Source of the DNA: Myxococcota bacterium
GTDB taxonomy: Bacteria > Myxococcota_A > UBA9160 > UBA6930
Assembly: GCA_028277885.1 (NCBI GenBank)
Contig: JANQFK010000034.1
Span: forward strand, 1-64,000
Reading direction: 5' to 3'
Length of the DNA: 64,000 nt
Positions 1 to 3,210 of the stretch are shown one piece after another. The translations under genes were made by a program, and so were the position numbers. Position 1 is the stretch's first letter; each line of letters starts with the position of its first letter. The notes under the pieces were generated by a model. That model saw only the letters and a list, made by a program, of their open reading frames with translations. It did not search any database and was not told where the DNA came from.

Positions 1-276
1 CAACCCGGCCCTTGCGGACGAGCGCCCAAAGGACACCTGCCCCGCTCGCGCGGCCGCCCCGAGGAGCGACGAGACCACACCACCCCGAGGGCGGCTGGCA
101 TACGAGCGCTTCGAGAACGAGGGCAACCTGAACCGCCCGGGCGCAGATGCAGAGATCGAGCTCGCCGAGAGGGGCTGCTTTGCCGGGCCGTCGCCGCAAG
201 CCACACCGCTGCGAAGCCCTGGAGCCCGACCGTGTGCCTTGCTTGAAGAAGAGAGAGCGCCCGCTTCCCGCGGTGC
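1..276. other. Left part of an integron gene cassette (cassette C), no trusted gene
   Basis: This stretch lies beyond the attC site at 277-406, on the side away from the integrase, so it should be the start of a further cassette cut by the window edge. Its right end and several internal blocks match the cassette at 948-1241 (shared text near GCCCGCTTCCCGCGG and ACCACACCACC), so the two cassettes are related. Open frames exist on both strands but none has a convincing start, ribosome site or recognisable product. I therefore call it cassette DNA only. Confidence 0.5.
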
Positions 277-406
277 GCCTAACGGACCTGGCGCTCAGCG
301 GCCGGGCCGCCGCCCTGGTGGCCCGGAGCGCCCAGGTGCATGGCCAGACGCTACCACCCAAATTTGGAGCGCGCTGGGCCCGGTCCGCTGCAGCGCTTAG
401 TTAGGC
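277..406 (-). repeat. Integron attC recombination site (cassette B)
   Basis: The outer boxes are GCCTAAC at 277-283 and GTTAGGC at 400-406, which fit the attC rule RYYYAAC ... GTTRRRY. Inside them the arms pair as an imperfect stem: CGCTCAGCGG on the left against CCGCTGCAGCG on the right. Read on the minus strand the order GCCTAAC, then GCGCTGCAGCGG, and at the far end CCGCTGAGCGCC before GTTAGGC is the arrangement I know from environmental attC sites. That sets the cassettes to read on the minus strand, away from intI. The length of 130 bp is at the long end of the known range. Confidence 0.85.
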
Positions 407-421
407 GGCAGCCGTCGCCCG

Positions 422-799
422 CTAGTAGGCCTGATGAGCCCAGCCGATTGCGCAGGAAAACCCCATAGCCGTTGCGGGCGAAAGGTGGGCATTGAACCGA
501 GCAAGCACCTCCGCATAGGTGCCGGGATCTTCCCGCTGGCAGATGCGAAGTAGGCCAAAATGGTGATCGCGAACGACTCTCTTGAGTTCTTGGCGAAGGC
601 TCGCGCGTTGATCGGTGGTGAGGGCCTCGACGTCGGCCTCGCACATTGTCAGAGAGGCCTGGCCGTCGAAGGAAACTCCAGCGTCGCTCCAGATGGTCGT
701 GCCCGGGGAGGAAAGCGGGAACTCAGCCTCAGAACAGGGCCGGGTTCCGCTACATGAGAGCGCGACGATTCCCATCACGACTATGAGCGGACCGGCCAC
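422..799 (-). CDS. Cassette-borne small lipoprotein of unknown function
   Basis: This 125-residue gene fills cassette B. It starts (GTG) 10 bases after the attC boundary at 809 and ends 15 bases before the next attC, the tight packing typical of integron cassettes. The N-terminus is hydrophobic and runs into a lipobox-like ALSC at residue 16, so export and lipid attachment are likely, although the n-region lacks positive charge. An in-frame ATG at residue 9 is an alternative start. The mature part has four further cysteines and a mixed helical centre. I recognise no family. Base composition is visibly lower in GC than the surrounding genome, as expected for a captured cassette. Confidence 0.75.
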   Translation of the reverse strand: MAGPLIVVMGIVALSCSGTRPCSEAEFPLSSPGTTIWSDAGVSFDGQASLTMCEADVEALTTDQRASLRQELKRVVRDHHFGLLRICQREDPGTYAEVLARFNAHLSPATAMGFSCAIGWAHQAY

Positions 800-808
800 A
801 CCTCTGAC

Positions 809-947
809 GCCTAACGGACCTGGCGCTCAGCGGCCGCCAAGGGCCCCGCTGCCCAGGGCCGACCGGAGCGCCGAAGTTCGACGCCAGACTACCACACGCT
901 GTTTTTGAAACGGGCCCTTGGCGGTCCGCTGCAGCGCCTGGTTAGGC
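809..947 (-). repeat. Integron attC recombination site (cassette A)
   Basis: GCCTAAC at 809-815 and GTTAGGC at 941-947 form the outer boxes. The inner arms repeat those of the attC at 277-406 nearly word for word (GGACCTGGCGCTCAGCGG next to the left box, GGTCCGCTGCAGCG next to the right box). The centre differs and forms its own hairpin (CCGCCAAGGGCCC near 836 against GGGCCCTTGGCGG near 912). Length is 139 bp. Shared arms with unrelated centres are the usual picture for attC sites within one chromosomal integron. Confidence 0.88.
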
Positions 948-1241
948 GGAGCGCGCGTGCGACCCTGCCGCTGGCAGCCGAGAGCCCAAGTACGAATGCC
1001 CCGCTCGGATGCGCGCGACGACGGGCACCGGAACCACACCACCCAGCGGGCGCCGGCCTACGCCCGCTACGACAACGAGAGCCACCGCCGCTGCTGATTG
1101 GACCGCGCCGCTCGGAAGGAGACGAAGAGAGGGCGCTTCGGGCCGGGGCACCGGCAAACCGAGCCGCCACGGAACTCTCGCGGCAGAGCGGGCAAGGTGC
1201 TGGAGAGAAGGGGAACGCCCGCTTCCCGCGGTACGCCTAAC
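948..1241 (-). other. First integron cassette body (cassette A), coding capacity unclear
   Basis: This is the cassette closest to the integrase. It is bounded by the attC at 809-947 and by the recombined junction GCCTAAC at 1235-1241. Several overlapping open frames exist on both strands and some run into the attC, but none shows a clear ribosome site or family. It is related to cassette C at 1-276 at both ends and in the middle. It may carry a short divergent gene, be a non-coding cassette, or be decayed. Confidence 0.6.
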
Positions 1242-1320
1242 AAGTAGTTGAGTCCAACCTACCGCCCCATATCATGAGCCGGATGCCCGGGGCCAGCAAC
1301 CCGCATCTCTCGCCCCACCA
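1235..1320 (-). other. attI: Candidate integron attI insertion site
   Basis: The minus strand reads ACTTGTTAGGC at the cassette junction, the same kind of end (AAGTTAGGC) known from attI1. The site lies between the first cassette and the start of intI, where attI always sits. Only the crossover core is clear. The two integrase-binding repeats expected next to it could not be placed, so the right-hand limit is arbitrary. Confidence 0.55.
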
Positions 1321-1350
1321 TGCGCTTTCATCGCACCGAGCCCGCGCCGG

Positions 1351-1389
1351 CGTATCCAATACGCATACCTCGTTCGCGTATTGAATACG
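1351..1389. promoter_or_regulatory. Tandem 13-bp palindromes upstream of intI (operator candidate)
   Basis: Two copies of a 13-bp palindrome lie at 1351-1363 (CGTATCCAATACG) and 1377-1389 (CGTATTGAATACG). Their centres are 26 bp apart. The second is perfect around a central G; the first has one mismatch. They stand out as AT-rich islands in very GC-rich DNA, about 125 bp before the intI start. Integron integrases in Proteobacteria are often controlled by LexA, but this is not the CTGT-N8-ACAG box, so the binding protein is unknown. Confidence 0.55.
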
Positions 1390-1512
1390 TGCGCCGCTCC
1401 GCGTAGGCTGCTGGAGGTCGCTGTCCCGGAGCGGCTCGCCGGCTCCTCACCCCGACGACGACCGTGAACGCGCGTTCGCGCTGCCACTAGGCGGGCGCGG
1501 CGTGCGCGGCGG

Positions 1513-2541
1513 GTGGGGTGGGGATTGGACACGACCGGGCCTCCGCGGCTCCTCGATCGGGTGCGCGCCGCGATCCGGCTGCGCCACTACAGCCTGCGCA
1601 CCGAGCAGGCCTACGTGCACTGGATCCGGCGCTTCATCCTGTTCCACGGGAAACGCCACCCGCGCCAGATGGGCGCGGAGGAGATCGGCGCCTTCCTCTC
1701 CCACCTCGCCACCACGCGGAGGGTCGCGGCCTCCACCCAGAACCAGGCCCTCAACGCGCTGGTCTTCCTCTACGGCACGGTCCTGGAGCTCGAGGTCCCC
1801 GAGCTCGAGAACGTGGTCCGGGCGCGCCGCCCCCACCGGCTCCCCGTCGTTCTCTCGCGCAGCGAAGTGGAGACGCTGCTCCACGAGCTCGGCGGCACCC
1901 AGCGCCTCGTGGCCGCGCTCCTCTACGGCGCGGGGCTGCGGCTCCTCGAGGCGCTGCGCCTGCGCATCAAGGACGTGGACTTCGCCCACGGCGAGCTCGC
2001 GGTGCGGGACGGCAAGGGGCGGCGCGACCGGGCAACCATGCTCCCCGAGACGCTCCGCGAGCCGCTGCGCCGCCAGCTCGAGGTGGCCCGTGCCCTCCAC
2101 GCCGCGGACCTGCGGGCGGGCTTCGGGGCGGTCTGGCTCCCGAACGCGCTGGCGCGCAAGTATCCGGCGGCGCCGCGCGAGGCGCGCTGGCAGTGGGTGT
2201 TCCCGGCCCGGGATCGCTCGCGGGACCCACGGACCGGGATCGAGCGGCGCCACCATCTGAGCGCCGGCGCCATCCAGCGGGCGGTGCGCCGCGCCGTCGA
2301 GCGCGCCGGCATCGCGAAGCCCGCCAGCCCCCACACGCTGCGCCACAGCTTCGCCACCCACCTCCTCGAGCGCGGCCACGACATCCGCACCGTGCAGGAG
2401 CTGCTCGGCCATCGCAGCGTCGCCACCACCATGGTCTACACCCACGTCCTGAACCGCGGCGGGCGCGGGGTGGTGAGCCCGCTCGATGGCATGGGGACCG
2501 GCCGGGGCGGGCGATCCGGCCGTGGCGACGACGAGCCGTGA
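1513..2541 (+). CDS. intI: Integron integrase IntI (tyrosine recombinase)
   Basis: IntI recombines attI with attC sites to insert and reshuffle cassettes. The 342-residue protein has a SAM-like N-terminal DNA-binding domain (residues 12-105, HYSLRTEQAYVHWIRRF) and a catalytic domain. Catalytic residues are visible: Arg143 (LYGAGLRLLE), Lys168, His274 and Arg277 (PHTLRHSFATH), His300 (LGHRS) and Tyr309. The extra segment around residues 205-235 (ALARKYP, WQWVFP) and the ending GGRGVVSPLD are specific to integron integrases and separate it from XerC/D and phage enzymes. The GTG start is chosen because the typical N-terminus follows at once. The gene reads away from the array, the classical integron layout. 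Confidence 0.95.
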   Translation: MGWGLDTTGPPRLLDRVRAAIRLRHYSLRTEQAYVHWIRRFILFHGKRHPRQMGAEEIGAFLSHLATTRRVAASTQNQALNALVFLYGTVLELEVPELENVVRARRPHRLPVVLSRSEVETLLHELGGTQRLVAALLYGAGLRLLEALRLRIKDVDFAHGELAVRDGKGRRDRATMLPETLREPLRRQLEVARALHAADLRAGFGAVWLPNALARKYPAAPREARWQWVFPARDRSRDPRTGIERRHHLSAGAIQRAVRRAVERAGIAKPASPHTLRHSFATHLLERGHDIRTVQELLGHRSVATTMVYTHVLNRGGRGVVSPLDGMGTGRGGRSGRGDDEP

Positions 2542-2550
2542 GGCCTCGGC

Positions 2551-3210
2551 TCAGCCCGCCCCGCGCGCCGCCCAGCACTCCCCGCGCAGCCCCGCGTACG
2601 CGACGGCGAGGAACACCGCGAGCGTCGATACCGCGAAGACCGGCACCGAGGCCGGCACCGGCCCGAGCGTGACCACGGTCTGGAGCACCACCAGCCCCCC
2701 TGCCCCGATCGCGATCGCCCGGACGCCGCGGGGCGAGAGACCGCCCCGCACCGCGCAGTAGGCCGCCGCCCCGACCAGGAGCGCCACCTCGAGCGCGAAG
2801 GCGATGGGCGGTGCATCCCAGAGCGCGAAGCCGAGCTTCGGTGGGGCGCCCCAGAGCGTGAGGTCCGGGCGGTGCACCACGAGGTCGAGCCCCCAGTGCG
2901 ACGCCACCACGAGCCCCACCGCCACACCCGCGCGCGCGGTCCCGCCGAGCCCGCGCACCCGCGCCGCGACGAGGCCCGCCGCCGCGCCCCACACCGCTGT
3001 CGCCGCCAGGCTGTGCGTGTAGGGCATGAACTGGAGGTCCAGCGGGTTCGAGGGCAGGCTCGGGTCGAGCCGCACCTGCTCGATGCCGGCGAGCACGAGC
3101 AGCGCCCACGCCACGTCCACGAGCTGGGCGGCGAGCAGGTAGGCCCACAGCGGCACCCGCGGCTCGACCGCCCGGGCCAGGAAGGCCGCGCTGTAGTGGC
3201 CTACGAACGT
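2551..3210 (-). CDS. Multi-pass membrane protein, probable non-ATG start
   Basis: About 219 residues with at least five hydrophobic segments. Sequences such as LPLDLQFMPYTHSL and ASHWGLDLVVHRPDL (His/Asp in membrane-edge loops) resemble a family of bacterial integral membrane proteins that I know only as hypothetical, sometimes likened to YdjM/DUF457-type proteins. The conserved beginning appears to be FVGHYSAAFLARAVEPRVPLW, but no ATG, GTG or TTG lies just before it in frame. The codon where methionine is expected is ACG at 3208-3210, inside the end of the upstream VOC gene. The start is therefore uncertain. The function is unknown. Confidence 0.7.
   Translation of the reverse strand, partial: TFVGHYSAAFLARAVEPRVPLWAYLLAAQLVDVAWALLVLAGIEQVRLDPSLPSNPLDLQFMPYTHSLAATAVWGAAAGLVAARVRGLGGTARAGVAVGLVVASHWGLDLVVHRPDLTLWGAPPKLGFALWDAPPIAFALEVALLVGAAAYCAVRGGLSPRGVRAIAIGAGGLVVLQTVVTLGPVPASVPVFAVSTLAVFLAVAYAGLRGECWAARGAG

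Follow-up and report, generated by a model that had tools for sequence, protein, structure and literature searches.

A chromosomal integron with one integrase gene and three attI platforms in a Myxococcota draft genome

RESULTS

An integron integrase beside gene cassettes at a contig edge

The window analyzed here is the first 64 kb (G000:C6:1-64000) of contig C6 in a 5.19-Mb draft genome of a Myxococcota bacterium. At its left edge, an intI gene on the forward strand stands beside an attI core and gene cassettes on the reverse strand (Table 1). The intI product is a full-length integron integrase with the IntI-specific additional domain. It scored 472 bits against the TIGR02249 "integron integrase" model (cut-off 265) and 144 bits, below the cut-off of 335, against the XerC model. 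Vibrio cholerae IntI4 (PDB 2A3V) matched it at 311 bits, and the IntI-specific insert, GFGAVWLPNALARKYPAAPREARWQWVFP, aligned with IntI4 throughout, confirming the clear IntI with an integron-specific insert that an earlier note on this DNA had recognized. The protein is about 57% identical to the class 1 IntI1, and the tyrosine recombinase motifs GAGLRL, HTLRHSF, LLGH, and VYTH are all present. A tree of 110 proteins placed it among integron integrases rather than with the XerC/D type, and apart from the Xer-type recombinase of its own genome. Given the great length of the Xer branch, the protein's identity is more securely established by the family-model scores.

Table 1 Features at the left edge of the window
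Feature	Position	Strand	Basis or remark
Cassette 3, cut by contig end	1-276	-	Window position 1 is base 1 of contig C6
attC of cassette 2, 130 bp	277-406	-	R1, 148.4 bits
Cassette 2 gene, 125 aa, no family match	422-799	-	ORF begins near cassette start
attC of cassette 1, 139 bp	809-947	-	R1, 116.3 bits; fold z -4.96
Cassette 1 body, no convincing ORF	about 948-1234 (elsewhere to 1241)	-	ORF scan
attI core GGACTCAACTACTTGTTAGGC, insertion point in GTTAGGC	1235-1255	-	21-mer, zero mismatch
Predicted Pc, TTGCTG (1299-1294), 17 nt, CATGAT (1276-1271)	1271-1299	-	Prediction from platform comparison
Paired palindromes CGTATTCAATACG-N13-CGTATTGGATACG, putative operator upstream of Pc	1351-1389	-	Three platforms only
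intI, integron integrase, 342 aa	1513-2541	+	TIGR02249, PDB 2A3V, tree, motifs

The lengths previously given for the two attC sites beside the integrase, 130 and 139 bp, proved exact. Elsewhere in the 64-kb window, the next-best match to the attC model reached only 18.9 bits. Both window sites are among the 19 training sequences of that model, and independent support was therefore drawn from shuffles and compensatory pairs. The shuffle z scores of the two sites were -5.0 and -1.7 on the cassette strand and -5.5 and -2.6 on the recombining strand. Over the 19 sites, 92.4% of cells were paired and seven pairs had changed on both sides in a compensatory manner; the controls gave 0 of 500 shuffles, and no slid version was more than 42% paired. 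The outer arms pair so as to leave two unpaired bases on one side.

The cassette 2 protein, for which neither Pfam nor NCBIfam returned a family, has an N terminus that looks like that of a secreted lipoprotein. The body of cassette 1 is 72% identical to the partial cassette 3 over 127 nt; these two mutually similar cassettes, neither with a convincing ORF, are possibly noncoding or promoter cassettes. A search of Rfam found no family in window positions 1 to 2600. The array does run on past position 1, as had been expected, and cassette 3 is cut there. Contig C6 starts at the first base of the window, so the next leftward cassette is out of reach in the present assembly. With IntI, attC sites, and, beside intI, an attI recognized by comparing three platforms, the window edge is a genuine chromosomal integron, as proposed. 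The accompanying description of such integrons as little described was only partly right: integrons have been reported in many phyla, Desulfobacterota and Myxococcota included (PMC8618304, PMC9668308).

One attC family on five contigs

The covariance model, built from 19 attC sites of the genome, matched 33 sites genome-wide at E<=1, 29 of them at E<=1e-3 and 14 of them outside the training set. All 33 share one orientation, on the minus strand, and are distributed over contigs C6, C47, C66, C44, and C39. Nearly all are spaced 200 to 1,600 bp apart, in good agreement with the 200 to 1,500 bp anticipated in the earlier note. The C66 array is represented by 19 sites, from 108504 to 123484, and its attC scores drop from the proximal to the distal end (rho 0.74, p 0.0003). 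The scores in C39 follow the same order (n = 4). Such decay toward the distal end is the trend expected for an array that gains new cassettes at one end. An array-strand ORF beginning close to the cassette start is present in most cassette bodies; cassettes 1 and 3 of C6, together with a few old cassettes, are exceptions. Pfam families among the cassette proteins include a ParE toxin, a HigA-like helix-turn-helix protein, a CPBP (Rce1-like) protease, an LCM methyltransferase, HEAT and ankyrin repeat proteins, GNAT, AAA, and DUF4238; about half of the cassette proteins had no Pfam family.

In the 91-contig draft, the array contigs C66 and C44 are not joined to the platforms of C6 and C47. End-joining of either array to either platform was considered and rejected, as exact overlaps were confined to attC-internal stretches of 12 to 21 bp, and no join was made. 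An insertion-sequence-like stretch follows the attC at the ends of both array contigs (C66:123500-123638, locus L026; C44:21620-21689, locus L027), with 98.6% identity between the two over 69 nt, and it probably broke the assembly. A related insertion-sequence-like remnant, with a weak rve_3 match, lies at C39:158505-160012 (L155).

Two further attI platforms lack an integrase gene

When the region between attI and intI was used as a genome query, it revealed two further platforms, on C47 and C39. The 21-mer pattern GGACTCAACTACTTGTTRGGY occurs with zero mismatches at C6:1235-1255, C47:1635-1655, and C39:161788-161808 only, and in the relatives the few 3-mismatch matches were at control level. 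The window's own intI is the only one found in the genome, a count limited to a draft that is 89.6% complete, such that a second intI could sit in the missing tenth. No IntI remnant was found in the intI-less loci of C47 (L025) and C39 (L155). The C39 platform lies within a 409-kb contig, and thus an intI is not merely beyond the contig end; the C47 contig is 39 kb.

All three platforms carry the palindrome pair CGTAYYNNATACG-N13-CGTATTNNRTACG, 94 to 95 bp upstream of attI. The pair has three occurrences in 98 genomes, all at the attI platforms of the window's genome; there were none in the 97 other genomes and none with the reversed control. Even a single palindrome, with up to one mismatch allowed, yields only two matches in this genome beyond the platforms, both nonpalindromic chance matches. 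Pc-like hexamers are found at the same position and with the same 17-nt spacing at C47 (TTGCCC/CAGACT) and C39 (TTGCCC/CACAAT). These hexamers are weak compared to consensus and absent from the output of a general promoter scan, though their place and spacing are kept at three platforms. The presence of one palindrome pair at all three suggests joint control, probably by a DNA-binding protein dedicated to these platforms. Retained at platforms without intI, the pair cannot act only on an integrase promoter.

Between platforms, attI is 95 to 100% identical and the operator palindromes are 77 to 92% identical, while the operator-to-Pc spacer is 38 to 63% identical, against a chance expectation of 30%. 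On the intI-less C47, the two proximal attC sites, at 152 and 147 bits, rank first and third of the 33. The C39 sites score 86, 55, 47, and 30 bits, and this platform, its attC sites partly decayed, may be dormant. Just outside the C39 platform is a tRNA-3'-end-like sequence (C39:162185-162222, L155), and a tRNA-Arg gene adjoins the last attC of that array; together they hint at an integration hot spot.

Platform layout in relatives

Of 61 relatives searched, 35 yielded a match (E<=1e-20) that was IntI or Xer-like, in most cases a clear IntI, and the attC model identified several arrays in relative genomes with a single full-length intI. For these, the attI side of the intI-bearing array was compared with the proximal flanks of the other arrays. 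By this sequence comparison, the same platform layout recurs in at least three other genera, represented by genomes G001, G010, and G035. A second platform was detected in G010 on contig C24, as a 39-bp match (E 5e-7) from a local flank comparison only; a search of ten relatives with the G010 attI 19-mer gave one exact match, the rest being at the level of the reversed control. G035 has two more candidate platforms, on C42 (E 8e-6) and on C31 (E 0.004, weak on its own). In G037, which has three arrays, a common attI was looked for and not found, the best 30-bp match being unlike attI.

G001 has two intI-less platforms, on C23 (E 5e-34) and C36. At its intI locus, the leader is similar to the C23 leader, but no attI core is present. 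The intI locus thus seems to have lost this core, which both intI-less platforms retain. The nearest attC is decayed at the intI locus, at 27 bits, versus 90 and 100 bits at C23 and C36. With the core gone from the intI locus, integration in G001 would be entirely in trans. The elements upstream of attI differ between genera, making the CGTATT pair lineage specific as far as searched. The G001 leaders upstream of attI (C9, C23, and C36; L198, L199, and L200) contain AAACGCTGCGA repeats, which are also seen upstream of intI in G014 (L113) and may be what other genera have in place of the CGTATT operator.

DISCUSSION

One integrase, several platforms

The genome thus combines a single intI with three attI platforms. 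The platform sites are conserved and the spacers between them diverged, the cassettes are of the single-ORF kind, and the attC sites decay with distance from the proximal end. Two intI-less attI-Pc platforms, located elsewhere in the genome than the array with the single intI, suggest that one enzyme serves several arrays at a distance, and we consider it probable that this is a dispersed chromosomal integron, whose one IntI acts in trans on several attI-Pc platforms. IntI produced from the window's gene would diffuse and recombine cassettes at every attI belonging to its family, with attC x attI insertion occurring at the adjacent attI and, in trans, at those of C47 and C39. Each platform's own Pc would presumably express the newest cassette, and the common palindrome pair would let one putative regulator set Pc at every platform. 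A more extended proposal, which we hold tentatively and with slightly more doubt than belief, is that one integrase and one dedicated regulator load and express cassettes at several chromosomal platforms, entirely in trans in the case of G001.

The best-surviving alternative, though an unlikely one, is an ordinary sedentary integron with relics, the C47 and C39 loci being old duplicates without intI that are now inert. Such loci are known as clusters of attC lacking integron-integrase (CALINs). They are common, one proposal regards them as degraded integrons (PMC9024848), and the C39 array is indeed short, with lower attC scores. However, attI and the operator are nearly identical between platforms while the spacers approach chance level. 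Relics would have lost both alike, and the intI-less platforms therefore look maintained. Moreover, few attC sites in the genome are as well preserved as the proximal ones of C47, and the layout recurs in the other genera named above. The C47 and C39 loci are attC clusters without a nearby intI, as CALINs are, but the decay of platform elements that marks a degraded integron is not seen in either, attI and operator being conserved.

A binning or strain artifact, with C47 or C39 coming from another organism or the loci being alternative versions of one locus, is very improbable. The draft is fragmented and has an estimated contamination of 1.8%, but the platforms lie inside long contigs with different neighboring genes, the attC sites of all contigs align as one family, and other genomes show the same layout. 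Least credible of all, and rejected on the near-match search, is the idea that the divergent intI promoter has an SOS (LexA) box in the paired palindrome, whose extra copies would then say nothing of cassette expression: SOS control of intI is common in beta- and gammaproteobacteria (PMC3108266), but LexA boxes should also occur at other SOS genes, whereas this palindrome is confined to integron platforms, two of which have no intI to regulate.

Relation to known integrons

In the textbook picture, an integron has intI, attI, and Pc together at one site, and an array that lacks intI is usually taken for debris or an off-target insertion. The dispersed integron proposed here resembles sedentary chromosomal integrons, such as the Vibrio superintegron and the ilvD-linked integron of Xanthomonas, in its divergent intI, attI, and predicted Pc, in its tens of similar long attC sites that decay toward the distal end, and in its single-ORF cassettes, with a ParE-type toxin and a HigA-like antitoxin among their products. 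It differs in that those integrons are described with one attI beside intI, while here there are three attI-Pc platforms and one intI. Likewise, the C47 and C39 arrays resemble CALINs in having no intI nearby but differ from them in keeping attI, a Pc-like promoter, and an operator pair. In the V. cholerae superintegron, Pc and Pint are under cAMP-CRP control (PMC3948777), and here, too, a regulator site on the attI side may control cassette expression; CRP, however, is a global regulator in V. cholerae, whereas the present palindrome is confined to the integron platforms.

Off-target insertion, intI loss, and rearrangement have been proposed as origins of CALINs (PMC8618304). Detection of attI by IntegronFinder 2 is limited to class 1 integrons (PMC9024848), and it follows that attI platforms without intI would be listed as CALINs. 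Xanthomonas CALINs at other loci have been reported, in the part of the account available to us, without mention of attI (PMC12444791), and in-trans mobilization of CALINs is considered possible (PMC12444791, PMC9668308). We found no account in the open-licence literature of several attI-Pc platforms with one intI, whether described as a second, orphan, or duplicated attI, which does not in itself prove novelty. Conserved intI-less attI-Pc-operator modules in several genera would make some such arrays working platforms, would show that hosts use their own integrases in trans, and would allow a direct test of why CALINs match complete integrons in frequency. If the regulated form of the proposal is true, a fraction of database "CALINs" would be live platforms.

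An inverted layout in other relatives

In eleven relatives, the attC array lies downstream of intI and codirectional with it (loci L120, L123, L124, L125, L127, L130, L132, L133, L135, L136, and L138). These loci belong to a single 18-row IntI group (SH-aLRT 85), which has mixed host families and lies apart from the IntI proteins of canonical layout from the window, L116, L118, and L075.
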